A program made the translations under genes and the position numbers. A stretch of 64,000 nt of DNA from Oribacterium sp. P6A1 (lineage in GTDB: Bacteria > Bacillota > Clostridia > Lachnospirales > Lachnospiraceae), in contig NZ_JNKO01000006.1 in the NCBI RefSeq assembly GCF_000702885.1, forward strand, positions 62,001-126,000, read 5' to 3'. This document shows positions 19,331-44,374 of this stretch, one piece after another; the first letter of the stretch is position 1, and every line of letters starts with the position of its first letter. The notes beneath the pieces were generated by a model that saw nothing but the letters and a program-made list of their open reading frames with translations, did no database searches and was not told the DNA's origin.

Positions 19331-20230
19331 ATGAATACAGATTTTATAAAGGGCGTTGTAGTTCCCATTATTACTGTGATCGATAAGGAAGAAAAGATCG
19401 ATGAAGCCGGAATGCGCAGACAGGTTGACTATGTTATAAATGGTGGACTGCATGGAATTCTCGCCTTTGGTTCAAACGGTGAGTTCTACCAGCTTGAAGA
19501 ATCGGAGATGGAGAGAGGCCTGAAGATCATGGTTGATCAGGCAGCAGGCAGAGTTCCTGTATACTTTGGTATCGGAGCTATCAATACAAAGAAGTGTATC
19601 CGTCTTGCAAAGATGGCAGTTGCAAATGGCGCTGCATGTGTATCTATCCTTCAGCCTATGTTCTTAAAGCCTACTCACGATGAGCTTTTCAATCATTTCA
19701 AGGCTATCGCAGAGGCTATTCCCGAGACACCGGTGCTTCTTTACAATAACCCCGGCCGTGTTGGCTACGGTATGACAGCTGATTTCGTAACAGAGATCGC
19801 ACATGCAGTTCCTAACATCGTTGGTATGAAGGATACTTCAGGAGATATCACTCTTACAGAAGAGTGCATTCGCAGAAACCGCGATGTTAACTTCAAGGTA
19901 TTTGGAGGCAAGGATACACTTCTTTTTGCTTCTATGTGTGTAGGGGCAGTAGGCGGTGTATGTACAGCAGGAAACTTCATGCCTGAGCTTATAGGTGATG
20001 TTTATAACAAGTACGTTGCAGGCGATTTCGAGGGATCCCGTGAGGCACAGTTTAAGCTTAATCCTGTGCGTCTCGCCATGGACAAGGCATCTTTTCCTGT
20101 AGCGGCAAAGGATATGGCAAACATCCGTGGTGAGAATGTGGGAGATCCTTATCTTCCGTCACTGCCAACCACAAATGAAGCAACACTTGAGTACTTCAGA
20201 AAGGTCATGAAGGAAGCAGGGCTCATCTGA
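19331..20230 (+). CDS. DapA/NanA-family aldolase, probable 5-dehydro-4-deoxyglucarate aldolase
   Basis: A 299-residue class I aldolase or dehydratase of the dihydrodipicolinate synthase/N-acetylneuraminate lyase family. Seen: FGSNGEFYQL, the Tyr138 of LLYNNPGRVGYG, the Schiff-base Lys167 of GMKDTSGD, and the GGKDTLL loop. I chose the ATG at 19331, with AAAGGTG upstream, over a GTG at 19322. It sits directly after garR. No GarL (HpcH/HpaI family) gene is in the window, so this protein is the best candidate for cleaving the ketodeoxy acid to pyruvate and tartronate semialdehyde. The alternative is a KdgD-type dehydratase giving 2-oxoglutarate semialdehyde; the garR neighbour argues against that. 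Confidence 0.85.
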   Translation: MNTDFIKGVVVPIITVIDKEEKIDEAGMRRQVDYVINGGLHGILAFGSNGEFYQLEESEMERGLKIMVDQAAGRVPVYFGIGAINTKKCIRLAKMAVANGAACVSILQPMFLKPTHDELFNHFKAIAEAIPETPVLLYNNPGRVGYGMTADFVTEIAHAVPNIVGMKDTSGDITLTEECIRRNRDVNFKVFGGKDTLLFASMCVGAVGGVCTAGNFMPELIGDVYNKYVAGDFEGSREAQFKLNPVRLAMDKASFPVAAKDMANIRGENVGDPYLPSLPTTNEATLEYFRKVMKEAGLI

Positions 20231-20245
20231 TGATGGGAGGCAGTT

Positions 20246-20470
20246 ATGAAACATGAAGTCACACTTGGAAATGGAGTAAAAGTACCGGAGATACTGCTTT
20301 CCTGGAACATAAGAAACGGACATACCATCGCGATCCCCAGAAGCTCGAAGCCTGATCACACATTAACTAACGTTCATGCAGACGGCATTGAACTGACAGA
20401 AGAGGAGCTTCAGCTTATAGACAAGGCATATCCCGCACCAACAAGCAAGGAATATCTGGATGTACAGTGA
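20246..20470 (+). pseudogene. Aldo/keto reductase with large internal deletion
   Basis: The 74-residue frame joins the first 14 residues of an aldo/keto reductase (KHEVTL.NG.KVP) directly to its last 60 (EILLSWNIRNGHTIAIPRSS ... KAYPAP). It corresponds to the full copy at 24673-25527, lacking about 630 bp. The join falls at the matching GTACC(G/T) of KVPAL and SVPEI. The catalytic Asp, Tyr, Lys and His are all lost. The identical upstream stretch around TGATGGGAGGCAGTTATGA shows that the duplication included the ribosome binding site. Confidence 0.88.
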
Positions 20471-20576
20471 TGATAAATCATTACTCAAGTGAGCGTAATC
20501 ATTAATTTTTGAGTATACTTATGTATAAATAGTATTAGCTTGAAAGGTGAATATGCTAACGAAAGGATTTTAATCA

Positions 20577-24362: not shown

Positions 24363-24683
24363 ATGGCAAATATTGCATTACTTGTACCTAATGATGAACT
24401 GTTCCGCCTGGCGCATGACGCACTGCAGGAGATGAAGAAACGTCTCTTTATGATGAAAGTAATCGAAACTGAAAGTGCTGTTACGGAAGCGAGACAGGCT
24501 ATAAATCAAGGCGCAGATATCATCATCGCAAGTTTTATGATACACGGTACTAATATTGTTTGGAAATTCCGGATAACATGGGGAAAGTGCCATGGAAAGC
24601 AGATATTCATTGTAAAAAATCTTCTGCCATGTGGTATATTTAATTTAATAAACAGGATGATGGGAGGCAGTTATGAGACATGA
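24363..24683 (+). pseudogene. Truncated PrpR_N-type sensor fragment
   Basis: A GGAGG five bases before the ATG at 24363 starts a frame whose first ~56 residues (IALLVPNDELFRLAHDALQE ... ARQAINQGADIIIA) match the PrpR N-terminal sensory domain of sigma-54-dependent and GGDEF-type regulators. After about base 24530 the sequence stops resembling the family and runs on into the start of the aldo/keto reductase gene. The rest of the regulator is missing. It is most likely a remnant left by the rearrangement that brought the reductase here. A short sensor-only protein cannot be excluded. Confidence 0.65.
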
Positions 24684-25527
24684 AGTTACACTAAGAAATG
24701 GTACAAAAGTACCGGCTCTCGGACAGGGAACCTGGTATCTGGGAGAGAGCAGTCTTCTGAGAAAAAGAGAAATCGAGGGTATACGTAAGGGCATTGAAGC
24801 CGGAATGACCCTTATTGATACAGCGGAAATGTACGGAAACGGTGCGGCAGAGGATATGCTTGGTGAGGCTATCAGCACTGTAGACAGAAGTAAGCTCTAT
24901 CTGGTATCGAAGGTTCTTCCCACAAATGCAGGAGGAAAGCGCATGCGTCAGGCTCTTCAGAGAAGTCTCTCACGTATGGGGGTCGATTATCTTGATCTGT
25001 ATCTTTACCACTGGAGAGGATCCTTCAAGTTGTCCGAAACAGTGTCGAGACTTGAGGAGCTTAAGGCAGAGGGACTCATAAAAGCCTGGGGAGTTTCCAA
25101 CTTTGATATAGATGACATGGAAGAGCTCTTTAGTGTGCCGGAGGGAAAGAACTGTCTCGTCAATCAGGTGCTTTATCATGCAGGTTCAAGAGGCATAGAG
25201 TATTCACTTCTTCCATGGATGATGGAGCATGATGTGGCCCTTATGTCCTACTGTCCGCTGGCTCAGGCGGGTTCACTTAAGAGAGGTCTCATGCAGAATC
25301 AGACTTTGGAGGAGCTTGCAAAGAAGTACGGGGTATCGGTACCTGAAATCCTTCTTGCATGGAATATAAGAAACGGTCATACCATCGCCATACCAAGAAG
25401 TTCCAGACCTGAGCACACCCTGTCCAATGCTCATGCAGACAGCATTGAACTTACTGAAGAGGATCTTCTTCTCATAGATAAGGCATATCCTGCGCCTGCG
25501 AAGAAGGTGTATTTGGATATGCAGTGA
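24673..25527 (+). CDS. Aldo/keto reductase, full-length copy
   Basis: A 284-residue NADPH-dependent (beta/alpha)8-barrel reductase. The catalytic tetrad is present: Asp49 and Tyr54 (IDTAEMYGN), Lys80 (LVSKVLP) and His113 (YLYHWRG). NADP-binding segments are VSNFDIDD, VNQVLYH, SYCPLAQAG and TIAIPRSS. It is close to the 2,5-diketogluconate reductase / YtbE group. The ribosome binding site is GGGAGG. It overlaps the end of the PrpR_N fragment by 11 bp. Its C-terminal sequence is repeated at 20246-20470 and at 30886-31002. Role in sugar-acid metabolism is inferred from neighbours. Confidence 0.92.
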   Translation: MRHEVTLRNGTKVPALGQGTWYLGESSLLRKREIEGIRKGIEAGMTLIDTAEMYGNGAAEDMLGEAISTVDRSKLYLVSKVLPTNAGGKRMRQALQRSLSRMGVDYLDLYLYHWRGSFKLSETVSRLEELKAEGLIKAWGVSNFDIDDMEELFSVPEGKNCLVNQVLYHAGSRGIEYSLLPWMMEHDVALMSYCPLAQAGSLKRGLMQNQTLEELAKKYGVSVPEILLAWNIRNGHTIAIPRSSRPEHTLSNAHADSIELTEEDLLLIDKAYPAPAKKVYLDMQ

Positions 25528-25721
25528 GGATCAATTACAAGTTTTTTATAGACATAGAGTAAGAAACTATTAAGAAGTGGCATGAAGTGGTTCCGTTTAA
25601 TAAAAATGTGAGTACAGAGGGAATTGTAATATGGAAGGCAGCATGATTGATTTATCGAAGTATAGGTATCTTGAGAAAAGATGGAGACCATAGTTATTTC
25701 ATCGTGATTGTAAGATAATTT

Positions 25722-30877: not shown

Positions 30878-30885
30878 TAGCTGTT

Positions 30886-31002
30886 GAGCACACCCTGTCC
30901 AATGCTCATGCAGACAGCATTGAACTGACGGAAGAGGATCTTCTTCTCATTGATAAGGCATATCCTGCGCCCGATCACAAGGTGTATCTCGATATGCAGT
31001 AA
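30886..31002 (+). pseudogene. C-terminal aldo/keto reductase fragment
   Basis: Encodes EHTLSNAHADSIELTEEDLL...DKAYPAP and ends YLDMQ plus stop, nearly identical to the last 38 residues of the gene at 24673-25527. There is no start, no catalytic residues and no 5' portion. The rest of 30572-31110 contains no intact gene. Confidence 0.92.
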
Positions 31003-31053
31003 TACAGTAAAGAATATAAGGTACTTAGTAGATATATTTTTTTAATTTCAGAA

Positions 31054-31671: not shown

Positions 31672-33630
31672 ATGATTATTTTTGTCGCAGGTTGTTCCAT
31701 GGGAAAGAACGTAATGGAGATGGAAAAGATGGGCATGTTTGATAACTATGATGAATCGTACCTCGAGGATATGTATTTTAAGTGTGAAAATATTTGTGGA
31801 CCCAGAGGGACGGGGAAGACGAGTTTTTTAAAGGCGCTTATGAAATATTTCGGTGATATCGGCGAAGAAAGGCTTGATTCTGAACCTATTGAGAGGGAAC
31901 ATCTGTCAAATTATGGAAAGCATCCTATCATTTTCCTTGATTTTTCGGATTGTTCTTCAAATACTCCGGAAAAAATGATGAAGTATATAAGGAAGAAAAT
32001 GTCTGAGCTATATATTTCTCTTTGGAAAGAATGTCGGGACGAGTTGTGGGGGTATTCTTCATATTCTGAATATTTGGATATTATCGAAGGAACCTGTAAC
32101 GATAAACTGCTGTCCCGTTCTTTGGTTAAGATTGTACATCTGTCAAGGATGCGCCGTACCTTAGGTGGATGTCATGAAAGGCCTATGATTTTTATTGATG
32201 AAATATCAAAGCCATTGTTATATGCTTCGGAATACGGTTTTTATAATGATTTGCAAAAGTTTTATGATGATTTTTTGGAAATTGATCATTACGAATTAAC
32301 AGGGGGAATTTACACTACATCTTTCGCACCTCTGAATACTGATGTCAAGTATAAGCTGAAATACATCAGTGACAGGCCGGTTAATGATGTTGAACCGTTA
32401 GCGATATATTGCCTAAGTCATTCGATGGCTATGAATATGGATTGTCAGAGAAGGATTCATGGTTGGGACTACAGATATTTTGATAAAGAGATAACATTAT
32501 CGGAATGCTTTCATGTGTATAAGAAGGAATACAAAGATAAATGCGCAAGGGAGACAGGAGAAGAGATTGCTTTAAGTCCTGAAATGAAAGCATTAGTATG
32601 TGAGAAAAGAAAATGGATCAAGGAAGAAGAGAAAAAGGCTATTGAGCAAAAGTGTTTGGAAGAAAAGCGGAAAGCAGAGGAATATGCGGCTAATCTTCCA
32701 GATGGAAGCAATATTCCATCGAAATATGCCGGAATCAGAAATTTGGATATAACTGTGTGCGATAAGAAGAAATATGAGAGACTAAACTGTATTATACAGA
32801 CGCTTGCCCGCGAACATGGAAATAGGATAAAACTTCATGATGTCTATGATTATATGCAGGGCTTAAAAAGAAACGAAAAAATCACAGGTATTGATTCATT
32901 GGTTATTCGGTTAAAAGAAATTGCTAGTTCTAATACGTCTTTGCATCGATGTGAAGTAAAGGCAAATGATAGTCACTGGGTGAGATTTGATGTGAGAAGG
33001 CTTGAAAAAGAACCTGGGTATGGTGATCTCGGATTGGTGAAGGTTTACCTATCGGTATGTGATGAGAGCAGAATCACAGAAGTGTTTGAAGATGTTGTAA
33101 ACTTTTTAATTGATCATGGACAACATCTGTTTCATTCGAAAATATCCTGTTATAGAAGAAATGACCATATTTGTATATGGGTGGCAAGAGAAGATTTCTT
33201 TACACTGGAACAACATCTCGGAAAGTACGATAGTATTTTGTTTACGCCGCTTCCATTTGTAGCATACAGAAATAAACTAGGAATAAGCAGAGAGTTCTGG
33301 TCGTGGGAGAGTCATAACGGGGTGCAGGCAACATTGATCTGTACTTATTTGAGGAGCAAATCTGATACGGCAAAGATAGATGTTTTAGAAATGTATTCGA
33401 AATATGTTAGTGCCTGGAATGGAGATCTTGCTGCGGAAGATGTTTTCACAAAGGAATTTAAAGGTGGAAATGCCCAGGAGTTTCTAGTGCTGTTGGAAAC
33501 TCTAGATGTACTTATGGGTAATGATGTTATAGATGATGGGCACTTACTTTTGAATGCTGATGCTAAGTTATGGCATGATTTGGGTAAATCAAAAAACTGG
33601 TATGAAGTTGGGATGAACAGAAAGGCGTAG
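31672..33630 (+). CDS. AAA-family ATPase with a C-terminal domain of unknown type
   Basis: A 652-residue protein. The N-terminal P-loop module has Walker A GPRGTGKTS near residue 45 and Walker B PMIFIDEIS near residue 170, like AAA-ATPase_like proteins. A Glu/Lys-rich coiled region follows (about residues 300-345). The C-terminal ~250 residues contain VKVYLSVCDES, FHSKISCYRRNDHICIWVARED, and PFVAYRNKLGI. This order loosely recalls HopA1-like lyase domains, a weak pattern match only. The usual PD-(D/E)XK nuclease partner domain of such ATPases is not seen. The downstream gene starts one base after this stop. The first ATG is used; ATGs at 31699 and nearby are alternatives. Confidence 0.75.
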   Translation: MIIFVAGCSMGKNVMEMEKMGMFDNYDESYLEDMYFKCENICGPRGTGKTSFLKALMKYFGDIGEERLDSEPIEREHLSNYGKHPIIFLDFSDCSSNTPEKMMKYIRKKMSELYISLWKECRDELWGYSSYSEYLDIIEGTCNDKLLSRSLVKIVHLSRMRRTLGGCHERPMIFIDEISKPLLYASEYGFYNDLQKFYDDFLEIDHYELTGGIYTTSFAPLNTDVKYKLKYISDRPVNDVEPLAIYCLSHSMAMNMDCQRRIHGWDYRYFDKEITLSECFHVYKKEYKDKCARETGEEIALSPEMKALVCEKRKWIKEEEKKAIEQKCLEEKRKAEEYAANLPDGSNIPSKYAGIRNLDITVCDKKKYERLNCIIQTLAREHGNRIKLHDVYDYMQGLKRNEKITGIDSLVIRLKEIASSNTSLHRCEVKANDSHWVRFDVRRLEKEPGYGDLGLVKVYLSVCDESRITEVFEDVVNFLIDHGQHLFHSKISCYRRNDHICIWVAREDFFTLEQHLGKYDSILFTPLPFVAYRNKLGISREFWSWESHNGVQATLICTYLRSKSDTAKIDVLEMYSKYVSAWNGDLAAEDVFTKEFKGGNAQEFLVLLETLDVLMGNDVIDDGHLLLNADAKLWHDLGKSKNWYEVGMNRKA

Positions 33631-33631
33631 G

Positions 33632-34144
33632 ATGATGAAGAATATGGATCAATTTGAGAGAAACTTAAACAGTAAGAATAGAAATAAAAATGGGGAAGAT
33701 ATTATGGCGAGTAATAAGTTTTATGAGTCAGTTGGCAAAGTTTCCATCTTGGATGATAAGAAAGATAAGCTAAATCAAACCATACTAGAGGATATTGAGA
33801 AGGCGGTGGATTCAGCAGTTGATTCATGCATAAAGGATGGGATACTAAAGGACTTCCTGCTTACCCATAGGGAAGAGGTGACAGATATATGCTTGACAGA
33901 GTTTGAAGAGATGACATTTGTAAATGGAATTAAAGAGGAAGGTCGTGAAGAAGGCCGAATTGAATGGCTTGTACGCCAGATATGTCGCAAACTACGTAAA
34001 GGAAAAACTATACCACAAATAGCTGAAGAGCTTGAAGAAGATGAAGCCAGGGTTTCAGCAATCTGTAACGAAGCTGCTGAGTTTTCACCAGATTATGATG
34101 AAGATAAGGTTATAAAAGCGGTGTTGGAATCAGTGGATAACTGA
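33632..34144 (+). CDS. Detached Rpn C-terminal module protein
   Basis: A 170-residue frame, one base after the ATPase stop and probably co-translated. Residues from about 52 on (EDIEKAVDSAVDSCIKDGIL ... FVNGIKEEGREEG ... ICRKLRKGKTIPQIAEELEED) match the C-terminal half of the Rpn protein at 41247-42188. The first 50 residues do not, and the nuclease domain is absent. It may be a functional partner of the ATPase or a degenerate Rpn copy. The intact frame and tight spacing favour expression. Confidence 0.7.
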   Translation: MMKNMDQFERNLNSKNRNKNGEDIMASNKFYESVGKVSILDDKKDKLNQTILEDIEKAVDSAVDSCIKDGILKDFLLTHREEVTDICLTEFEEMTFVNGIKEEGREEGRIEWLVRQICRKLRKGKTIPQIAEELEEDEARVSAICNEAAEFSPDYDEDKVIKAVLESVDN

Positions 34145-34163
34145 ATGAATTAAAATATAGAAA

Positions 34164-34210
34164 ATACACAGAGCCACTATATCGAAAGGTATGGTGGCTT
34201 TGTGTATATT
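34164..34210 (+). terminator. Terminator-like hairpin after the Rpn-module gene
   Basis: About 16 bp of pairing (ATACACAGAGCCAC with GTGGCTTTGTGTAT). A clear T-run is lacking on the plus strand, so efficiency is uncertain. Confidence 0.6.
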
Positions 34211-34267
34211 AAAAATTAAAGGGAACCGGAAACATAAGAAAAGGAATCGGAGTACGATGAAAAAATA

Positions 34268-34306
34268 TTTATAAAAATCTTATGAATAGTCGAAAATTTA
34301 TATAAT
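34268..34306 (+). promoter_or_regulatory. Glycan-locus promoter element, copy 1
   Basis: TTTATAAA (34268-34275), exactly 12 bp, AGTCGA (34288-34293), then TATAAT (34301-34306). The same layout occurs at 35853, 42341 and 43136. It lies 75 bp before the transferase gene at 34382. There is no good -35 hexamer at the usual distance, so an activator is likely. Confidence 0.6.
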
Positions 34307-34381
34307 GATGAGAATACGTTAGCTAAACGATTCGATATCGCTATATTCAGTTGGCAAAGATTAGATTTGTGAGGGTGTGGT

Positions 34382-35749
34382 ATGCGGAAGGCGCTAAAAA
34401 ATCAATTGGCAGAGCTTATCGCGCTCTTGCCGGAAGCTCATGAAACGATACTAAAAGGTATCGATGATAACGATGCCAATACGATTACTGTATGCCTTAC
34501 CGACTGCCAGAACGCTGCTGTTTCGATAGGTACAAAAATCGATGAGTCAGAGGGAGAAGGAACAACCACAGTGAAGGCTCTGGAAGCATACTGTGAGCTG
34601 CTGTTCAGGATTCATCAGGAAGTAACGGGCGGAAATGCCGAAAAAAAGAGCATTCAAAAAAAGTTAAAGAAATGCTACATAGACATTTCCAATAAATTAC
34701 TGTACGAGATTCCCGATACAAAGGAAGTGGTTTTCCTTCCATATAAAGCATCGATGTGGGATTCTCTGGAAAGCGTGTGGAAAAAAGCAGCAGCCGATCC
34801 GATGGTGAATGCCATAGTTATTCCGATTCCGTACTATGACAAAAATCCGGATGGTTCCTTCAGGGAGTTTCACTACGAGGGAGGAGAATTTCCAAAGGAT
34901 GTTCCCATAGTCTCATATGAAAAGTACAGTCTGGAAAAGAATCATCCTGACGAGATATACATTCATAATCCTTATGATGACAGAAATTTTGTAACCAGTG
35001 TACATCCCTATTTTTACTCTTCAAATATAAGAAAGTTTACAGATAAGCTTGTATATATTCCGTACTTCGTGCTTGATGAGATTGACCCCGGAAACCGGGC
35101 TGCAATAGAAGGAATAAAGCATTTTATAGAGACTCCGGGTGTTCTAAACTCCCATGAAGTTATCGTGCAGTCAGAGAATATGCGACAGGCCTATATTGAG
35201 TGTCTTATGGAGTATACGGGAGAGAAAAACAGACGTTTCCTTGAGAACAAAATAAAGGGAACGGGCTCTCCAAAGATAGAGAAGATCAAGTCCATGACCA
35301 TCGATGATGTGGAAATCCCCGAGGAATGGAAGAAACACATCTTCAAGGAGGACGGAAGCCGTAAGAAGATAATCATTTACAATACAAGTGTGACAGCACT
35401 TCTTCAGGAATCGGAACAGATGCTCAGGAAGCTTCTGGATGTTTTCAGGATTTTTAAGGAGCATAGGGATGAGGTGACACTTCTCTGGCGACCACATCCT
35501 CTTATAAAAGCAACTATCTGTTCCATGAGACCGCAGTTGTATGAAGCCTATGAGAAAATCGTGGATATATATAAGGCTGAGGATTTCGGTATTTATGATG
35601 ATACTGCGGATATGGACAGGGCTCTCGTTATGGCGGATGCCTACTACGGAGATGCAAGCAGTCTGGTAACGTTATGTAAGGCAATAGGGATGCCGATAAT
35701 GATACAGAACGCACATGCGATAGAAGAATCAAAGGATATGAATCCTTAG
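34382..35749 (+). CDS. CDP-glycerol glycerophosphotransferase-like / GT-B-type transferase
   Basis: A 455-residue cytoplasmic protein. The C-terminal half carries KKIIIYNTSVTALLQ, LLWRPHPLIKAT and ADAYYGDASSLVTLCKAIGMPI, the donor-binding pattern of poly(glycerophosphate) transferases and related GT-B enzymes. The N-terminal ~130 residues are helical and unassigned. It is the first gene after promoter copy 1. The next bases encode, in another frame, a plausible continuation (KGVAVVFREGYLEWVDAKLF, to about 35818), so the true C-terminus may have been lost to a frameshift near 35730. It would build or decorate a teichoic-acid-like surface polymer. Confidence 0.72.
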   Translation: MRKALKNQLAELIALLPEAHETILKGIDDNDANTITVCLTDCQNAAVSIGTKIDESEGEGTTTVKALEAYCELLFRIHQEVTGGNAEKKSIQKKLKKCYIDISNKLLYEIPDTKEVVFLPYKASMWDSLESVWKKAAADPMVNAIVIPIPYYDKNPDGSFREFHYEGGEFPKDVPIVSYEKYSLEKNHPDEIYIHNPYDDRNFVTSVHPYFYSSNIRKFTDKLVYIPYFVLDEIDPGNRAAIEGIKHFIETPGVLNSHEVIVQSENMRQAYIECLMEYTGEKNRRFLENKIKGTGSPKIEKIKSMTIDDVEIPEEWKKHIFKEDGSRKKIIIYNTSVTALLQESEQMLRKLLDVFRIFKEHRDEVTLLWRPHPLIKATICSMRPQLYEAYEKIVDIYKAEDFGIYDDTADMDRALVMADAYYGDASSLVTLCKAIGMPIMIQNAHAIEESKDMNP

Positions 35750-35852
35750 GTAAGGGAGTAGCTGTTGTTTTTAGAGAAGGTTATTTGGAGTGGGTTGACG
35801 CAAAGCTATTTTAAGGAATTAAGTCTTCAACCTTTCAAAATATAAAATAATG

Positions 35853-35892
35853 TTTATAAATTCCAGCTTAAAAGTCGACTCTTTTATATGAT
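35853..35892 (+). promoter_or_regulatory. Glycan-locus promoter element, copy 2
   Basis: TTTATAAA (35853-35860), 12 bp, AGTCGA (35873-35878), TATGAT (35887-35892). It lies 92 bp before the cytidylyltransferase gene. Confidence 0.6.
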
Positions 35893-35984
35893 AGAATCAT
35901 TTAAAAGAGTAAAGAATGTCAGTATTGTAATAAGTGTTTTTATAGTAAGAATTCGGTCATAAAAAAAAGAGGGGTGTTTTAGTA

Positions 35985-36713
35985 TTGAATATAGGGGTAA
36001 TATTCGCTGGCGGAGTCGGTTCCAGAATGCACAGTAAAGATAAACCAAAACAATTTTTAAAACTCTATAATAAGCCGATTATTCTGCATACATTAGAACC
36101 TTTTGAGCTGAATAACGAGATAGATGCGGTTGTTATAGCCTGTGTAGAAGATTGGATACCATATCTTGAAAAGCTTATATATAAGTTTAGGATTGAAAAA
36201 GTCAAGAAGATCGTTCCCGGTGGGCCAACAGTACAACTATCGATATATGAAGGATTAAAGGCTGCAAAAAAAATAGCGGGGGATGAACCGAGTATAGTGC
36301 TTATTCATGATGGAGTCAGACCGCTTATTAATACAAGGCTGCTGTCTGATAATATCGATAGTGTAAAGAAATATGGATCTGCAATTACAGCGGGGATTGT
36401 AAAGGAAACTATTGTGCTTGTCGATGAAAACCAGGATATAGAACAGGTTCCTTCCAGAAAGTATTCGCGAATGGCGAAGGCTCCACAGTCGTTCTGGCTT
36501 GATGAAATACTGGCTGTCCATGAAAAAGCACTGGAAGATGGAGAGAGAAGTACTATTGATTCATGTAGTCTTATGAAGCAGTATGGAAAAAAACTTCATA
36601 TGATCGATGGACCATATGAGAACATCAAAATAACTACTCCGGATGATTTTTATACCATGCGTGCAATTCTGGAAGCGAAGGAAAATAGCCAGATATATGG
36701 ATATGATGATTAA
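35985..36713 (+). CDS. TarI/IspD-family cytidylyltransferase
   Basis: A 242-residue CTP-dependent pyrophosphorylase with FAGGVGSRM, KPKQFL, LIHDGVRPL, and AKAPQSF, typical of TarI (ribitol-5-phosphate cytidylyltransferase) and its relative IspD. It starts with TTG, with AGGGG 11 nt upstream. In a glycan locus next to an SDR and a CDP-glycerol-type transferase it more likely activates a polyol phosphate for a surface polymer than serves isoprenoid synthesis. Confidence 0.83.
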   Translation: MNIGVIFAGGVGSRMHSKDKPKQFLKLYNKPIILHTLEPFELNNEIDAVVIACVEDWIPYLEKLIYKFRIEKVKKIVPGGPTVQLSIYEGLKAAKKIAGDEPSIVLIHDGVRPLINTRLLSDNIDSVKKYGSAITAGIVKETIVLVDENQDIEQVPSRKYSRMAKAPQSFWLDEILAVHEKALEDGERSTIDSCSLMKQYGKKLHMIDGPYENIKITTPDDFYTMRAILEAKENSQIYGYDD

Positions 36714-36764
36714 GTACAGATATGTGTTTTAATATTTATGAAAATAGAGAAAAAGGTGTAAAAT

Positions 36765-37802
36765 GTGGATCGTTATTTAGAAGAAGACTTATATCGTCTT
36801 TCTCAAAACAAAAAATTACAAGGAAAATATAAGAATAAGACAATATTTGTCACTGGGGCCACTGGTCTTATTGGTTCTTTAATTATTAAAGCATTACTTA
36901 GATTAGATCATAGAGTAAATGTAATAGCTCTAATTAGGGATTTAGAAAAAGCAAAAGATATCTATGAAGATGATTTTGAAAGAATTCAATTTGTTATTAA
37001 TGATATCTTGGATCCTTTTAATGTAGATGGCGATATAGATTATATATTTCATTGCGCCAGCATCACATCTTCAAAGAAGATGATTTTATGTCCTGTAGAA
37101 ACAATTGATGTCGCAATCACAGGTACACGAAATATACTAGAATTAGCAAGAAAGAAACATGTACAGTCTTTTGTTTACATTTCATCTATGGAAGTATATG
37201 GTACTTTTACAATATCGACTTCTGATGTAAAGGAAGATGATATGGGATATGTAAATCCATTACTTGTACGCAGTAATTATCCTGAGTGTAAGAGACTATG
37301 TGAAAACATGTGCATAGCTTATTATTCGGAATTTGGTATACCTGTTAAAATTGCCAGATTGGCACAGACGTTTGGACCAGGGATTTTAAAGACAGAAAAC
37401 AGAGTATTTGCACAATTTGCAAGAAGTGTAATTAGAAATGAGGACATTGTATTACATACAAAGGGGTTATCAGAGGGCAATTATTGCTATTCCAGAGATG
37501 CGATAAATGCGTTGTTATTACTTTTGATATGTGGAAAGGATGGAGAAGCATATAATATTTCAAATCCTAAAGCACATACAACTATTGCAAATATGGCTGA
37601 TATGATTTGCAAAAAGATTACAAATAACAAAATCAGGGTGATATTTGATGTTCCGGAAGATAACGTATTTGGATATGCAGCGGATACTAAGATGCGTTTA
37701 AACTCTGAAAAAATGATGGCATTAGGATGGAAACCGGAAATTGGTCTCGAAGAAGCTTATAGCAGGTTAATAGGAAGCATGATTGAAACACATAACTACT
37801 AA
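36765..37802 (+). CDS. NAD-dependent epimerase/dehydratase (extended SDR)
   Basis: A 345-residue extended short-chain dehydrogenase. It has the NAD motif TGATGLIGS, the FHCAS strand, the catalytic Ser in YISSMEVYG and the YPECK active-site Tyr/Lys. It starts with GTG after AAAGGTG. It follows the TarI-like gene by 51 bp; together they could supply an activated polyol or deoxysugar. The exact sugar nucleotide cannot be told from sequence. Codon use is markedly AT-rich. Confidence 0.85.
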   Translation: MDRYLEEDLYRLSQNKKLQGKYKNKTIFVTGATGLIGSLIIKALLRLDHRVNVIALIRDLEKAKDIYEDDFERIQFVINDILDPFNVDGDIDYIFHCASITSSKKMILCPVETIDVAITGTRNILELARKKHVQSFVYISSMEVYGTFTISTSDVKEDDMGYVNPLLVRSNYPECKRLCENMCIAYYSEFGIPVKIARLAQTFGPGILKTENRVFAQFARSVIRNEDIVLHTKGLSEGNYCYSRDAINALLLLLICGKDGEAYNISNPKAHTTIANMADMICKKITNNKIRVIFDVPEDNVFGYAADTKMRLNSEKMMALGWKPEIGLEEAYSRLIGSMIETHNY

Positions 37803-37879
37803 GAAGAGAGTATGAAATATTATAATACAACGATACTTAGTATTATTCGTTTTGAAAACAAAAAGAACGGGTGTTTTAT

Positions 37880-38965
37880 ATGGTTGCTGATGAAGTTTTG
37901 AAAAACAAAAAATACGTTATATATGGTGCTCAGGTAATAGCATTTGGAGCATATAAGGCATTAATGAATTTAACGGGCATATCTCCTGAATGCTTTGCTG
38001 TAGGGAAATCGAAAGGCAAACCTACATATCCTTTGGGAAATCCAGAAGATATCGAGGGAATTCCTGTCAGACCGATTGAAGAAATATCTAAGGAGATGTT
38101 CATAATTGTTGGTGTGACCGAAATGATTCAAAAAGAAGTGTTACCATTTCTTGCTGAGAATGGATATAAACATGTATTTCCATTAATTCAGCATGAAGAG
38201 CATCTCTTGATGAGTGAATACTATAGAAGATTAGGGTTATTTCCGACTATTGAAAAATTAAGTGTGATCAATGAATCAACAAAGCGACAGCCTGATTTTA
38301 TGCTTTATGAGGTTAAAAATGATAGAGATAAACCATTATCATGTTTTCCTCAATTATATTCATATGAAAAAACAATTCAGGCGGGAGCTGCAATTGCAGA
38401 AAAGAGTATTGCCGATATAAGAGATGATGCAGGAATCAATATTTCGGAGAAGAATCGTATGTATTGCGAAATGTCTGCGGTGTACTGGATATGGAAGAAT
38501 ACTGATCATGATTGGATAGGGATAGAACATTATCGCAGACATTTTTTGGTAAAACCGGAAATGCTAAGGGATGATATTGATGTATTTTTGCCTTTACCAT
38601 ATATGTGTTATCCACATGAGATGAAACATGTTCTCAGATTTACGACTGAAAAAGTGATGTATGCATTATTGGAAACTCTGAAGGTTCTATATCCTGATAA
38701 ATATGAAGAGTATCGCAAGATTTTGTATGGACAATATCAATACTGTTACAATATTATATGTGCCCGAAGATATGTATTTGATAATTATTGCAGATGGTTG
38801 TTTGGAATCACAGAGTATATGGAAAAGAATTTTGCAGAAGAGGTTACGGATTTGATGACAACCAGAACTTTGGGATATGTGTCTGAGGTTTTGACGAGTG
38901 TTTATTATATGTCCCATCAGCATGATCTGCGAATAATGCATGTTGAAAAAGAGTTCTATGTATAG
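37880..38965 (+). CDS. DUF4422 glycosyltransferase with N-terminal Rossmann-like module
   Basis: A 361-residue protein. Residues about 10-110 form a small nucleotide-binding-like module (KYVIYGAQVIAFGAYKAL ... MFIIVGVTEM) also seen in three other proteins of this locus. The C-terminal ~230 residues are DUF4422: DDAGINISEKNRMYCEMSAVYW, then IGIEHYRRHF. This family of capsular glycosyltransferases is often galactofuranosyl or galactosyl in type. I prefer the ATG at 37880 (GGGTG upstream) to the GTG at 37871. Confidence 0.85.
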   Translation: MVADEVLKNKKYVIYGAQVIAFGAYKALMNLTGISPECFAVGKSKGKPTYPLGNPEDIEGIPVRPIEEISKEMFIIVGVTEMIQKEVLPFLAENGYKHVFPLIQHEEHLLMSEYYRRLGLFPTIEKLSVINESTKRQPDFMLYEVKNDRDKPLSCFPQLYSYEKTIQAGAAIAEKSIADIRDDAGINISEKNRMYCEMSAVYWIWKNTDHDWIGIEHYRRHFLVKPEMLRDDIDVFLPLPYMCYPHEMKHVLRFTTEKVMYALLETLKVLYPDKYEEYRKILYGQYQYCYNIICARRYVFDNYCRWLFGITEYMEKNFAEEVTDLMTTRTLGYVSEVLTSVYYMSHQHDLRIMHVEKEFYV

Positions 38966-38995
38966 GCATGAGATTATCTTATATAGGGAGTCGTT

Positions 38996-39571
38996 ATGTG
39001 GTATGTGATTCAGACAATGAAAGGTCGTGAAGAAAAAGTCGCAGATGCAATCAGATATGATGTAGCGGAAGCGGATGAAACGGTCTTTGTCTTTGAAAAT
39101 GAAATGGAATATAAGGTAAAAGGCTAATGGATCAAAGATACAAATCCATTTTTTCCGGGATATATATTTATAGATAATGATGAAGCCAAGGCGGAAGACT
39201 TCGATATCAGACTGAGAAAGGAAAAATATCCCTTGAAGCTTCTTCTGGTGGATGGCAAGGTCACACCTATAAGACCAGAGGAAGAGGAATATCTCACAAG
39301 AATCGGAGGAGATGAACATATTGTCAGAAATTCAATAGGATTTCGTGTGGATGATATGGTGAGTATCACCTCAGGGTCCTTTAAAGGATGGAAGGGTGAA
39401 ATCATAAAAATCGATCGTCACAAACGAAGAGCAGTCATCAGTGTTCCTATGATGGGAAGAGATGTGGAAGTGACTATAGGTCTTGAGATAATCAAGAATA
39501 TTTCCGGTGACGAGCTTCAGCCAGACGAAAAACCTGATAGAGGGGAAATGGCGAGGATAGTAAGTGCATAG
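38996..39571 (+). pseudogene. loaP: LoaP/NusG-like antiterminator interrupted by one stop codon
   Basis: The ATG at 38996 (AGGGAG upstream) begins MWYVIQTMKGREEKVADAI, the NGN domain start. The frame hits TAA at 39125-39127 after 43 codons, then continues in the same frame with WIKDTNPFFPGYIFIDND and a complete KOW-type C-terminus (VDDMVSITSGSFKGWKGEI). Total length, 191 residues, is normal for LoaP. Thus a single substitution, for example from GAA or CAA, created the stop. LoaP proteins promote read-through of long polysaccharide or polyketide operons. Unless the stop is suppressed, this copy is inactive. Confidence 0.88.
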
Positions 39572-39618
39572 AGCAGGGGCTCCTACATTCTAAAAATGTC
39601 GTAATAGGCGAATGGCGG
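39570..39618 (+). repeat. Partial copy of the glycan-locus boundary repeat
   Basis: The sequence from AGAGCAGGGG through CCTACATTCT (39570-39590) resembles 42234-42254. TGTCGTAATAGGCGAATGGC (39597-39616) matches 42512-42531 with few differences. It marks the loaP/hipA junction as a former rearrangement boundary. Confidence 0.65.
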
Positions 39619-39643
39619 CTCTGATTTGTTGTTAGGAAGAGAA

Positions 39644-40630
39644 TCAATTCAGCCTGTCAATCCTTGAAATGATTAGTTCTTTCATCGAAAGTTTCATATC
39701 ATCCGGGAGAAAAGAATCGTCAACAAGTTTAAGAAAAGCCGAATTCTTTGACACGATACTTTGCATCAGCTTAATGGCGGCTTTTTGTGAAAGTCCGGCT
39801 GAATCGGCAAAGGCAAAGAAATCTTTTTTTCGTATATTCCTTTTTTTACCATTCAGAGTCAGAGCAGTTTCTTCCTTATCTTCAAGCATGACGAGATTTA
39901 CAGGAAGAAGATCGTATGCCGGCGACAAACTGAAATGTCTTGATGCAGGAGCGGACTCGATCAGAGAAAAGTTTTTTAAATGCATATCGGAATTACCGGT
40001 GATGAAACAAACTAAAAGCCTCAGATATAATTCTGAAATATCAAGCATTCTTTTTTCGGAATACTTATTGATGATTCCTGCGCACCTTTCGTAAGCCCCT
40101 TTATATTTATCCTCAGTTAATCTGAAACTTAACTGGCAAAAGTCTTCCATGGCATATAAACTTACACGAGATACAACCCCTTTTTTGAAGGCGATATCTC
40201 TATCCATACGTTTTGTGATGTAAGCATAGATCCCCCCCCGGAGCTACTGTTCATTCTGATTAGTGCATGAGACGCAGTTTTGACACCTGCCAGATTAGCT
40301 ATGTTCATTACCAATGCCTCAGCCTTGGGAAGATGGCTGAAACTTCTGGTCTGTGGCTTCAGAATGTATCCGGAAGGAAAATCAACAATAGTCAATTTTT
40401 TTTTCATCGCTTTGTGAAAGATGCAAAGACAGTTTCTTCTGAACGCCGGTGACTGTGAATCCATGAGAGACAGTTTCCTCCGCGAGTTTTTCCAGTTCAT
40501 CATCTGATATATCTATCTTAGGCATATCAGAAGTCTGAAAAAATTTCCGGATGCATCTTGAGTGCCAGCCGGAAACCATTTCCTGCCCGTCTTCTTTATT
40601 CAATTCCTTTCCACAACATAAACATCTCAT
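39644..40630 (-). pseudogene. HipA-like kinase split by two homopolymer frameshifts
   Basis: The gene reads from ATG 40630 (RCLCCGKELNKEDGQEM, HGFTVTGVQKKLSLHL) to a run of nine A (40404-40396) where the frame is lost. It resumes one frame over as KLTIVDFPSGYILKPQTRSF ... VKTASHALIRMNSS, then meets a run of eight G (40239-40232). It resumes again as YITKRMDRDIAFKKGV with the kinase core GNSDMHLKNFSLI and PAYDLLPVN. Eight A and nine (or six) G would restore one frame. Frames other than these end quickly. HipA proteins are serine/threonine kinases of toxin-antitoxin systems. The two tracts suggest phase variation, decay, or sequencing error. Confidence 0.82.
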
Positions 40631-40948
40631 AATTCCTTACCTTCAGGTCTAATGCTTATATCTCCGATACAATCAAAGCATGAGGCAAGTAATAAACCGA
40701 AACGATCCTTTCTGTCTATTTTCCTGTTTCGGCTAACTAAATTGAGAAGCCAGCCCTCAGGTATAAGACCATCAAAAAACGAAAATAAAACAGAAGAGGT
40801 ATACGGTTCCTGTCTCAGCGGCAAAGTTATACTGATTGAAGGATTTGTACCGGTCAGATACGAAGCGTCATATGTGAAACTATAGCCCTCATCAGTCTCA
40901 CATAAGATACCGGCTTTTACATTCTGAACGTAAACATCTGCCTTTCAT
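40627..40948 (-). pseudogene. HipA N-terminal subdomain protein, start region frameshifted
   Basis: The frame ADVYVQNVKAGILCETDEGYS ... LPLRQEPYTSSVLFSFFDGLIPEGWLL matches the separate HipA N-terminal subdomain gene found in split hipA operons. It is open only from 40944. The likely ATG (40948) is one frame off because of an extra G at ATGAAAGG. Its end overlaps the kinase ATG by 4 bp (ATGA), as expected for a coupled pair. A TTG at 40824 could give a truncated product. Confidence 0.72.
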
Positions 40949-40965
40949 AATATATCAGAACTCTG

Positions 40966-41226
40966 CATCTTCAATCCTTCCCGGAACAGCCTGCATTCCG
41001 AACATCGCCAAAAAGTGAAAAATGTTTCTTCAAGATTAGGTATTGACAGAGCGGGCTGGATTCCAGTATTCTGAATAAGTAGTTCAGTAGCTCCACTTCT
41101 TTGGAGTACGTAATTCTAAGATTATTTCCGGATCATAATCTTCTATTATTTCAATAAGGAAACCAAGATAACTAAAAACGTAAACCAACGTTTGTTAACA
41201 AAAAATTTAATAAATGCTGTTATTTT
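40966..41226 (-). other. Decayed sequence upstream of the hipA-like pair
   Basis: Minus-strand frames give broken peptide pieces (ITYSKEVELLNYLF; IQPALSIPNLEETFF; FGMQAVPGRIEDAEF then stop) that must once have been one gene. I do not recognise it. A HipB-like HTH was expected here and is not evident. Confidence 0.35.
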
Positions 41227-41246
41227 TGATGCTATACTAAAGCTAT

Positions 41247-42188
41247 ATGAAGGAACATATATATGGGAAAAGAAAAAATCAATATAAAGACAGGCTATTC
41301 AGACTTCTGTTTGGCAGAGAGGAAAATAAAGAGCCCATCATGAGTCTCTATAATGCATTGAACAATTCTGACTACAAGGATGTATCAGAACTGGAACTAT
41401 ACACCATAGAAGATGTTATTTATATCAAGATGAAGAATGATGTGGCTTTCATTTTGGAGAGCTACTTGTCATTGTGGGAACAACAAAGTACATATAATCC
41501 GAACATGCCGGTGCGGGGATTGATGTATTACGCTAAAATGTATGATAAATATATTAAAAGCAGGTCACTCAATATCTATGGATCAAAGCTGATAAAGATT
41601 CCAACACCGCGATATATAGTTTTTTACAATGGAACAGAGGATATCAATTCGATAAAGCAGCTGAGATTATCAGATTCCTTTATTAAGCCGGATCAGACAG
41701 GAGCTTTTGAATGGACAGCAACATTGTGTAATCTTAATAAGGGAAAAAATGACGAGCTCAGATTTCAATGTAAAGTATTGGACGGATATATGACGCTGAT
41801 CGAGAGAATCAGGGCAAATCTAAAAAGCACAGAAGATATTGAGAAGGCTGTGGATTCAGCAGTTGTTTCATGTATTGATGAAGGGATATTAAGAGACTTT
41901 CTTATTGCTCATCGAGCGGAGGTAATAGATATGTGCTTGACAGAATATGATGAAAAAACGTTTGTGAATGGTATTAAAGAGGAAGGCCGTGAGGAAGGTT
42001 GTAAAGAGCAAATTATCAGACTGATATGTCGAAAGCTTCGTAAGGCAAAGACTGTTTCTCAGATTGCTGAAGACCTTGAAGAAGATGAAACAAAGATAAA
42101 GATTATTTGCGATGCTGTCGCAAAGTTTGCACCAGATTTTGATGAAGAGAAGGTTATTAGAAGTGTACTTGAAGAAGTCAAAGTTTGA
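41247..42188 (+). CDS. Rpn family PD-(D/E)XK nuclease / putative transposase
   Basis: A 313-residue protein of the common Lachnospiraceae subtype: NQYKDRLFRLLFG, SLYNALNNSDYKDVSELEL, then DVAFILESYLSLWEQQST with the E-x-Q type nuclease residues, RGLMYYAKMYDKYI and KLIKIPTPRYIVFYNG. The C-terminal ~115 residues (EDIEKAVDSAVVSCIDEGIL ... FVNGIKEEGREEG ... ICRKLRKAKTVSQIAEDLEED) are the module found detached at 33632 and 42768. It stands between the hipA and capE parts of the locus and is probably the source of the duplicated modules. Confidence 0.88.
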   Translation: MKEHIYGKRKNQYKDRLFRLLFGREENKEPIMSLYNALNNSDYKDVSELELYTIEDVIYIKMKNDVAFILESYLSLWEQQSTYNPNMPVRGLMYYAKMYDKYIKSRSLNIYGSKLIKIPTPRYIVFYNGTEDINSIKQLRLSDSFIKPDQTGAFEWTATLCNLNKGKNDELRFQCKVLDGYMTLIERIRANLKSTEDIEKAVDSAVVSCIDEGILRDFLIAHRAEVIDMCLTEYDEKTFVNGIKEEGREEGCKEQIIRLICRKLRKAKTVSQIAEDLEEDETKIKIICDAVAKFAPDFDEEKVIRSVLEEVKV

Positions 42189-42233
42189 TAAAGAAAAGTG
42201 ATTCCGGGTAAAAACAGAATATATAAAAGTCTT

Positions 42234-42282
42234 AGAGCAGGACTTCCTACATTCTCAAATTGTATGGAACCCTGCTCTTTTT
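42234..42282 (+). terminator. Terminator after the Rpn gene
   Basis: AGAGCAGG (42234-42241) pairs with CCTGCTCT (42271-42278), with an inner TTCC/GGAA stem, then TTTTG. A degenerate copy (43033 onwards) follows the Rpn remnant. Confidence 0.82.
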
Positions 42283-42340
42283 GTAATATAAAATATATTT
42301 ATAAGAAATGAACCCATCAAGCGCCCCGAATTAAAAAATG

Positions 42341-42379
42341 TTTATAAAATCCAGATAAAGAGTCGACAATTTATATAAT
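42341..42379 (+). promoter_or_regulatory. Glycan-locus promoter element, copy 3
   Basis: TTTATAAA (42341-42348), 12 bp, AGTCGA (42361-42366), TATAAT (42374-42379). No coding gene follows directly; a duplicated block and a structured stretch lie downstream. Confidence 0.6.
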
Positions 42380-42628
42380 CTAAATGTTTGAGAAGATAAT
42401 TTTTTGGATAATATGGTGAAAAAATATTTCACCAATGATATGATGCTTATAGATAGGTTTTTTTAAGATTTTTAAATGGTACAGAAGACTAAAAGAAATT
42501 GAAGAACAAAGTGTCGTGATAGGCGCATGGCGGGAGGCAGTTGACATAGCGATAGCGGGTGGCGACTGAATGAAGTCATCATGGTGAAGCTATGAGAAAG
42601 ATAAAAGTTGTGTTTGAAGTGTTGTAAT

Positions 42629-42721
42629 ACTAACTTAAAAGAGGTTAGGTAGTAACTACTAGACCTTCAATCCAAGATTGAATATCTAAGTTCAGGGGTT
42701 TTCCTTAAGGCATAGTAGTTA
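42629..42721 (+). ncRNA. Structured noncoding stretch, candidate RNA
   Basis: TAACTACTA (42653-42661) and TAGTAGTTA (42713-42721) are perfect 9-bp arms enclosing a second perfect hairpin, TTCAATC-caa-GATTGAA (42666-42682). A CTAAC/GTTAG hairpin precedes them. No protein frame is present. Promoter copy 3 is about 250 bp upstream. It could be a small RNA or leader; no known family was recognised. Confidence 0.35.
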
Positions 42722-42750
42722 ATATTATATGGGAAGGTCGTATTCGTTAC

Positions 42751-42763
42751 AGTGACAGGCACC
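42751..42763 (+). repeat. GGTGACAGGCACC junction repeat, copy 2
   Basis: AGTGACAGGCACC, one mismatch from copy 1, 5 bp before the truncated Rpn module at 42768. Confidence 0.75.
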
Positions 42764-42767
42764 AAGG

Positions 42768-42920
42768 CTTCGTAAGTCAAGGACTGTTTCTAAGATGGCC
42801 GAAGATCTTGAAGAAAATGAAATAAAGATAAAGACTATTTATGATGCTGTGGCAAAGTTTTCACCAGATTTTAATGGAAAGAAGGTTATTAGAAGTGTAT
42901 TGAAAGAAGTCCATGCTTGA
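42768..42920 (+). pseudogene. Rpn C-terminal fragment
   Basis: Encodes LRKSRTVSKMAEDLEENEIK ... DAVAKFSPDF ... KKVIRSVLKEV and a stop, matching the last 50 residues of the Rpn protein at 41247-42188. There is no start and no nuclease domain. A diverged terminator and promoter copy 4 follow it, repeating the order after the intact gene. Confidence 0.9.
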
Positions 42921-43135
42921 TAAAGCAGTGATAAAGACATGAGTATATGATTATCAATATCAGGGATTTGGAAAATCAAGAAATAGACGTAGAAAAGTAA
43001 TTACTACTACAACAGAATATCTAAAAACCTTAGAGCAGGAATTTTTATATTCTTGAATTGTAGAATTTTCTATTCTTTTTGCAATATCAATTCGATTTTT
43101 AAGGAATAGGCCCTTCGACCTCTTCATAATAAAAA

Positions 43136-43174
43136 ATTATAAAATTCAGATAAAGAGCCGACATTTTATACAAC
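43136..43174 (+). promoter_or_regulatory. Glycan-locus promoter element, copy 4
   Basis: ATTATAAA (43136-43143), 12 bp, AGCCGA (43156-43161), TACAAC (43169-43174). It lies 162 bp before capE and is the presumptive promoter of the FucNAc genes, though its -10 is weaker than in the other copies. Confidence 0.5.
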
Positions 43175-43301
43175 CCAATGGTATAAGAAGAATGTATTAT
43201 TTGGATGGTTTGACGAACAAAGATTTTCTAGCGATATGATATTTATAGATGATATTTTCAAATGTATTCGTGAAGTACAATTACTTAAGCGATTACGTAA
43301 G

Positions 43302-43336: not shown

Positions 43337-44374
43337 ATGACTGATTTTAATGGCGCAACGTTATTGATTACAGGAGGGACAGGCTCATTTGGTCAGACGG
43401 TTCTAAAACGTTTTATTAACTCCAATCTACATGAGATTAAAATCTTTTCTCGTGATGAGAAAAAGCAGGATGATATGCGTCATGAGCTTCAGTCGAAATA
43501 TCCGGATGTTTATTCAAAAGTAAAGTTCTATATTGGCGACGTCAGAAATCTTCAATCAATACGAGATGTAATGAATGGTGTAGATTTTGTATTTCATGCC
43601 GCTGCCTTAAAACAGGTTCCGAGTTGTGAATTCTTTCCTATGGAAGCTGTGAGAACAAACATATACGGAACAGATAATCTATTACATGCGGCCATGGAAG
43701 CAAAGGTTGAAAAGGTTGTTTGTCTCAGTACTGACAAGGCGGCTTATCCTATAAATGCAATGGGAACATCAAAGGCAATGATGGAGCATGTGATAAGAGC
43801 TAATGCACGAGTAGCTGCTGAACAGAATGGGCCTGTCATATGTTGTACTAGATATGGTAATGTTATGTGCTCAAGAGGTTCTGTTATTCCACTGTTCATT
43901 GATCAGATTAAAAATGGTCAGAAGATTACTATAACTAATCCGGAAATGACTAGATTTTTAATGAACTTGGACGAAGCTGTAGAATTAGTGATGTTCGCAT
44001 TTGAAAATGCTTCTCCTGGAGATTTATTCATTCAGAAAGCCGATGCAAGCACTATAGGAGTTTTGGCAAAAGCAGTTCAGAAATTATTCGGTTCAACAGG
44101 TGAGAAAATCATTGGAACGAGGCATGGAGAAAAACTATGTGAAACTCTGATGACCAGTGAAGAGAGTCTTCGTTCTGTAGACATGGGAAAATATTTCAGA
44201 GTGGCAGCAGACAATAGAGATCTGAACTACGACAAATATTTCAGTAAAGGTAATAAAAGTTTTAATGATGAACCATATACTTCATCTAATACAAGACTTC
44301 TTAACGTGGAGGATACTGTTTTAAAACTGTTAACAACGGATTATGTAAATAACGCATTGAAGGGTAGTAAATGA
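43337..44374 (+). CDS. capE: UDP-GlcNAc 4,6-dehydratase/5-epimerase, CapE/FnlA/WbjB family
   Basis: A 345-residue extended SDR starting the UDP-N-acetyl-L-fucosamine pathway. It has LLITGGTGSFGQTVLK for NAD binding, HAAALKQVPSCE, CLSTDKAAYPINAMGTSKAMME with the Met-x3-Lys active site peculiar to this inverting family, and the late RHGEKLCETLMTSEE typical of CapE/FnlA. A GGGAGG ribosome binding site precedes it. It overlaps capF by 4 bp (ATGA). Confidence 0.92.
   Translation: MTDFNGATLLITGGTGSFGQTVLKRFINSNLHEIKIFSRDEKKQDDMRHELQSKYPDVYSKVKFYIGDVRNLQSIRDVMNGVDFVFHAAALKQVPSCEFFPMEAVRTNIYGTDNLLHAAMEAKVEKVVCLSTDKAAYPINAMGTSKAMMEHVIRANARVAAEQNGPVICCTRYGNVMCSRGSVIPLFIDQIKNGQKITITNPEMTRFLMNLDEAVELVMFAFENASPGDLFIQKADASTIGVLAKAVQKLFGSTGEKIIGTRHGEKLCETLMTSEESLRSVDMGKYFRVAADNRDLNYDKYFSKGNKSFNDEPYTSSNTRLLNVEDTVLKLLTTDYVNNALKGSK

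Follow-up and report, generated by a model that had tools for sequence, protein, structure and literature searches.

Duplication and decay of an Rpn gene end beside glycan promoter-like elements: a probable origin for similar blocks in a surface-glycan locus of Oribacterium sp. P6A1

In a surface-glycan region of Oribacterium sp. P6A1, which adjoins flagellar genes, the coding sequence for the C-terminal end of an Rpn protein, a hairpin and a promoter-like element seem to follow one another in the same order at three places. This raises the question of whether the three parts form one unit or are neighbours with separate histories. The region lies in the window, the whole stretch of 64,000 nucleotides analysed here (G000:C6:62001-126000), which was taken from a 3.70-Mb draft genome; positions are those of the window, the blocks and the genes described with them lie on the plus strand unless stated, and genes are named by their first position. 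Rpn proteins are a nuclease family published as toxin-antitoxin and phage-defence genes. An earlier note on this DNA had proposed that Rpn tail, hairpin and promoter spread as a block, the tail perhaps hitch-hiking with, or driving, the insertion of new glycan cassettes. The explanation that we favour, with a probability of about 0.78, is the ordinary duplication and decay of an Rpn gene beside glycan promoters, with one junction that recurs in two genomes.

The order of events may be reconstructed as follows. Several glycan operons would start from a conserved promoter-like element belonging to the glycan genes, and an Rpn gene, with what is read as its own terminator, sits between two glycan cassettes. 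The 3' end of this gene, with terminator, element and leader, would have been duplicated in tandem to give blocks 2 and 3, the second copy now decaying. Block 1 would be separate in origin, a stretch of 27.7 kb, with an AAA gene and then an orphan Rpn tail at its end, having come to abut the resident element of gene 34382. Comparisons were made across 17 genomes of the genus, including Oribacterium sp. C9 (G015) and Lachnospiraceae bacterium JC7 (G011), and across wider sets of 61 relatives and 397 genomes of the family, only 2 of which belong to this genus.

The complete Rpn gene and the three blocks

The complete Rpn gene (41247-42188) encodes 313 residues, with a relative 87% identical in JC7, and belongs to the PDDEXK_2 family (PF12784, E=1.5e-7, 31.8 bits against a cut-off of 27.4). 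Four matches to its subfamily occur in the genome, three of them in the window and the fourth, a short tail, on contig 26; three other PF12784 genes are of a different type; the earlier note had rightly placed the tails, the elements and this single complete copy. The tail contains a repeat-like EEGREEG run; in the Rpn family the C-terminal domain is variable, carries four-residue repeats and blocks toxicity. No Pfam family matched the tails, PADLOC gave no match for Rpn or its tail, and the three matches among solved structures (E 0.12 to 0.86) were not meaningful. A piece of a HipA_C gene lies upstream on the minus strand (39644-40207).

Base-by-base alignment separated the blocks. Blocks 2 (41.8-42.45 kb) and 3 (42.76-43.25 kb) are alike at 86% over 162 nt of the tail and at 72% over 267 nt covering hairpin, element and leader, and their tail-to-element stretches align with a score of 81 that none of 500 shuffles reached (maximum 33). 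Tail 2 is the end of the complete gene, from about 41816 to 42188. Tail 3 (42764-42925) corresponds to 42032-42193, with a match of 51 aa, no start, dS of 0.21 and dN/dS of 0.78. The hairpin of block 2 (42234-42278, -21.5 kcal/mol, z -3.1), followed by TTTTTGT, is read as the Rpn terminator. Its copy in block 3 (43032-43076), 82% alike over 34 nt, has lost its stem (z -1.7), since 12 of 200 shuffles fold equally well. As judged from these alignments, the two blocks arose by duplication in tandem, the repeated stretch comprising Rpn tail, hairpin, element and leader. Block 3 is the decaying copy, with no start, the stem lost and a dN/dS of 0.78. Within the stretch between them (42455-42763), 110 nt (42485-42594) are 87% alike to G014 L122:10107-10215, and a short stretch near 39604 looks similar by eye.

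Block 1 (33.8-34.3 kb) is of another kind. Its tail (33775-34144) forms the end of an orphan RpnS-like open reading frame (ORF) of 170 aa (33632-34144), about 50 N-terminal residues of which have no similarity to Rpn. The tail is 73.9% identical in DNA to the complete copy over 330 nt (75% over 274 nt in another alignment, 65% over the last 162 nt). The frame is open, with dN/dS of 0.12 at a dS of 1.8, which is close to saturation; this dN/dS may date from before the tail was cut from a complete gene. The ORF lies directly 3' of the AAA-type gene (31672-33630; PF09820, 27.7 bits, cut-off 26.1), for which a search of 115 other genomes gave no match, viral contigs no close relative and PADLOC one weak match (E 7e-4). 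The hairpin of block 1 (34164-34207, 20-bp stem, -31.6 kcal/mol, z -10.3) showed no detectable relation to that at 42234-42278 or to its copy. The tail-to-element stretch scored only 19 and 18 against blocks 2 and 3, values matched by 124 and 297 of 500 shuffles. A lack of identity outside coding module and promoter, which the earlier note had named as refuting its unit, thus applies to block 1 but not to blocks 2 and 3, and the hairpins of the three places are not one element. As a dispersed repeat the hairpin was also rejected, with 7 matches in 4 of the 17 genomes against 3 in the reversed control.

The element and its genes in related genomes

Seven copies of the element give the consensus TTTATAAA-N12-AGYCGA-N3/4-TTTATRTRAT. 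The first two boxes keep a constant distance, and the position of the third varies by one base. Blocks 2 and 3 apart, the N12 shows little conservation, and likeness among the seven is mostly limited to about -10 to +40. When the gap was allowed to vary from 10 to 14 bases, the 3.7 Mb held three matches, all with a 12-base gap and all in this locus (34268, 35853 and 42341; reversed control 0). The first two exact sites and 42341 lie in elements at 34258-34306, before gene 34382, at 35842-35892, before an IspD-like gene (35985) and with no Rpn tail upstream, and at 42330-42379, followed by decayed block 3. The fourth element (43127-43176), with a degenerate but homologous core at 43136, precedes gene 43337 (43337-44374), which encodes an FnlA/PseB-like UDP-GlcNAc 4,6-dehydratase (TIGR04130, 439 bits, below the cut-off of 730; PF02719, 336 bits). 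The three sites of the earlier note are therefore real, to which the exact site without an Rpn tail must be added, and its promoter-like element common to glycan-locus genes is borne out by six of the seven copies, the exception being 42341.

A looser pattern of the element gave five matches in three of the 61 relatives (three in this genome, one each in C9 and G012; reversed control 0). The G012 match (L021) was not accepted into the series; a transporter-like gene lies before it, with no Rpn within 3 kb. A stricter pattern found this genome alone among the 397 of the family. With three mismatches allowed, the 17 genomes held 10 matches against 3 in the reversed control, six of them in this genome and C9 and four elsewhere, near chance.

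Gene 34382 (34382-35749) has no Pfam or NCBIfam match and is related to the C-terminal part of LicD-domain proteins (31% identity to a 634-aa LicD protein of JC7). Its orthologs, 66-84% identical, occupy eight loci in seven genomes, a count that leaves out a 50% relative in G001 and weaker ones; no Rpn tail lies upstream at any of the eight, within the 0.9 to 7.9 kb examined. On one C9 contig the order is FIST-kinase gene, tRNA-Val, tRNA-Met, element (L027:1096, orthologous to that at 34258-34306), 34382 ortholog, element and IspD-like gene, then an epimerase gene, a DUF4422-like gene and, at the contig end, an Rpn fragment. The C9 kinase gene and window 3368-6508 share 82% identity. From the end of the kinase gene in the window (6511) to the start of gene 34382 the distance is 27.9 kb; similarity to C9 resumes at 34258, that is, at the element, so that the AAA gene and tail 1 would have come to abut a resident site. 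The intervening 27.7 kb (6512-34257), which ends in these two, is absent from this place in C9, JC7, G016 and G010, its counterpart being two tRNAs in C9 and two tRNAs with a small glycan cassette in JC7; in G016 and G010 the kinase gene is directly upstream of the ortholog. The SNF2 gene of the 27.7-kb stretch has a counterpart, 94% identical, that follows the LoaP gene of G016. In JC7 two diverged elements without Rpn precede the 34382 ortholog and a gene that by eye is glycosyltransferase-like, and the Rpn gene is placed after the glycan genes, at a contig end.

A second C9 contig begins with an IS3-type gene, followed by the remainder of an Rpn tail, a hairpin and relBE-like genes, and then by another Rpn tail, another hairpin, the element and a NeuA-like gene. 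The two contigs are taken as probably adjoining, because their Rpn pieces correspond to residues 134-254 and 253-313. Hairpin regions like 42234-42278 sit 3' of both C9 Rpn copies and the element follows the second only, which argues that the hairpin is a terminator of Rpn and the element a promoter of the glycan genes.

Rpn tails across the genus and the explanations weighed

A profile of the tails gave 46 matches in 10 of the 17 genomes, of which 36 were examined (the others being at G010:C22, G006:C19, G006:C27, G014:C30, G014:C60, G014:C21, G014:C45, G016:C28, G004:C24 and G004:C39). Downstream stretches numbered 34, from 38 tblastn rows less four with under 700 nt, several rows being pieces of one site. 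Outside the window, one stretch in 34 carried the element, at the corresponding glycan locus of C9; it scored 38.1 in the seven-element matrix, of which it is itself a member, and 400 random stretches reached at most 11.1. One G006 site reached 14.3 with the core matrix, for which random stretches gave up to 15.1. The nearest gene was of glycan type at three, at most four, of 21 Rpn sites (an IspD fragment with LicD, a LicD gene, a DUF3880 glycosyltransferase and perhaps an epimerase), other neighbours including toxin-antitoxin genes (BrnT, HicB), an integrase, an aminotransferase and transport genes; these classes cover 30 proteins and two AAA genes, a part of the flanking genes. Glycan-type genes stand further out at L077 and L083, by eye, and toxin-antitoxin genes (relBE-like, BrnT, HicB) adjoin Rpn sites several times. 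Extra C-terminal copies by tandem duplication occur in blocks 2 and 3, in C9 and at G004:C28, G006:C2 and G014:C32; at the last three no glycan gene was recognised among the scanned neighbours, which points to duplication as a habit of this Rpn and not of the glycan promoter. At three places in G006 (L085 5960-6219; L086 4293-4522 and 12924-13183) an Rpn start (residues up to 36) is followed immediately by a tail (197-236), as would be left by a deletion of the nuclease part.

That Rpn tail, hairpin and promoter make up one mobile unit, installing new glycan cassettes under a standard promoter, is highly improbable on these data. The same order in blocks 2, 3 and C9, and the six of seven elements before glycan-locus genes, speak for it, but block 1 lacks tail-to-element similarity, elements without Rpn stand at 35853 and at two C9 sites (one before the 34382 ortholog), no Rpn lies upstream at the eight orthologous loci, and the element accompanies Rpn at one of 34 sites elsewhere. 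Blocks with shared ends at non-orthologous sites were not found, blocks 2 and 3 being adjacent, block 1 non-homologous and the C9 block in the corresponding locus. The preprint PMC10327210 also reports no inverted repeats or target-site duplications at rpn genes and no evidence of autonomous transposition. The spread of the unit as a block thus falls away, and nothing was seen to show an Rpn tail driving cassette insertion. The junction might instead be a recombination hot spot, at which Rpn-tail homology lets intervening cassettes be exchanged or duplicated by homologous recombination. Copies are closer within than between genomes (94% over 341 nt in C9 and dS 0.21 between blocks 2 and 3, against a dS of about 1.5 from this genome to C9, although the comparisons do not cover the same part of the tail), and the glycan genes 3' of the junction differ between the two genomes; independent tandem duplications explain the same pattern, however, and no strain pair was seen with cassettes swapped between Rpn copies, so we consider this quite unlikely. 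An extended form, to which we likewise give little credence, holds that Rpn-tail junctions are recurrent recombination points between cassettes, with tails that stay alike within each genome as homology handles, and that the orphan tail at 33632 (dN/dS 0.12) has also been retained in the role of an antidote to complete Rpn; if true, antitoxin copies of a defence gene would shape surface-glycan diversity.

The element itself might be a sigma-28 (FliA) promoter tying glycan synthesis to the adjacent flagellar genes, which we regard as doubtful. Downstream, the same contig carries a fliA-like sigma gene and flagellar operons (by eye; flagellin by Pfam), and the element, with TAAA and YCGAMA, resembles the Butyrivibrio consensus quoted as TAAA / MCGATAa in PMC3720852, sharing with such Lachnospiraceae promoters a TAAA-like upstream box and a CGA core. 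A three-mismatch relative in C9 (L069, G015:C3:21317) also lies about 70 bases before a chemoreceptor-like gene, by eye. Against this, the fliD, flgM and flgK sites of this genome, aligned by eye, read TWAT-N15-GCCGATAW, with fliC nearly so; the element, which matches none of them and has an extra TTTATRTRAT box, departs from these sites in its spacing and in one -10 position, and is therefore not called sigma-28. Seven stretches upstream of motility genes score at most 7.9 in the element core matrix, compared with 22-25 for the elements.

Several observations weigh against simple duplication and decay. The C9 glycan locus has the same order of Rpn tail, hairpin, element and glycan gene, so that more than one event lies behind the association within this locus; this Rpn is also found in the glycan region in each of JC7, C9 and this genome. 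The likeness of the C9 pieces to each other, set against the dS of about 1.5 given above, implies that each lineage duplicated or converted its copies, and that recombination recurs here; contigs break at the IS3 gene in C9 and inside Rpn in JC7. Weak similarities cut across the division made here, linking the block 1 spacer to that of C9 copy A (28 of 500 shuffles) and block 3 to the stretch before the Rpn-less element 35853 (3/500); for block 3 the figure was only 107/500 against C9 copy A and 28/500 against copy B. Finally, the element is not universal, since two of the eight orthologous loci (G016, G010) have none and its relatives before 34382 in G004, G012 and G014 reach 12.6-14.0 with the core matrix, within the random range (maximum 15.1).

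Published systems, neighbouring features and meaning

According to PMC10327210, Rpn genes are toxin-antitoxin systems whose C-terminal RpnS is translated separately, rpnC and rpnE are followed by second rpnS copies, and rpn arrays seem to arise via tandem direct duplication; second copies are therefore already on record. The present gene resembles that RpnL/RpnS family in its PDDEXK_2 protein, EEGREEG-type tail run, extra downstream C-terminal copies and separate C-terminal ORF; an internal start, toxicity and rescue are putative for it. Blocks 2 and 3 fit the published rpnS duplication, except that here one duplicated copy, unlike those of the arrays described, took along the terminator and the glycan promoter-like site. 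What is unusual is this reach into a neighbouring promoter region, together with the fact that the junction recurs in C9. Among the paper titles listed on Rpn with glycan loci, and on Oribacterium flagellar glycosylation, LoaP and sigma-28, none connects Rpn with such loci.

The locus presumably resembles flagellin glycosylation islands and LoaP-linked glycan loci. As in the former, sugar-nucleotide, glycosyltransferase and NeuB/NeuC-type genes adjoin flagellar genes, which begin about 5 kb past the window end (named by eye, except flagellin by Pfam) and make flagellin glycosylation plausible. As in the latter, a LoaP gene is present in G016 (140 bits, cut-off 125); its relative in the window, a NusG-like gene (38996-39571; relatives in G016, G014, G004 and G012 at 71-75%), differs in having an in-frame stop, and the glycan target here is only putative. 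Elsewhere in the window, repeats of 60-197 nt, 76-91% alike and mostly intergenic, lie at 20229-20478, 24656-24715, 25339-25535 and 30885-31003, and neighbouring genes 14854-15387 and 16221-16754, the first matching an enolase C-terminal family, are 66% alike in DNA. Rfam at gathering thresholds found no family in the window, and a further search of viral contigs gave no match.

The locus illustrates that separately evolving neighbours, here a duplicating toxin-antitoxin gene, its terminator and a resident promoter, can pass for one composite element when a single genome is viewed. Cases of Rpn tail duplication are thereby added for the Lachnospiraceae, as is a promoter-like element of the glycan locus that is conserved in two Oribacterium-type genomes.

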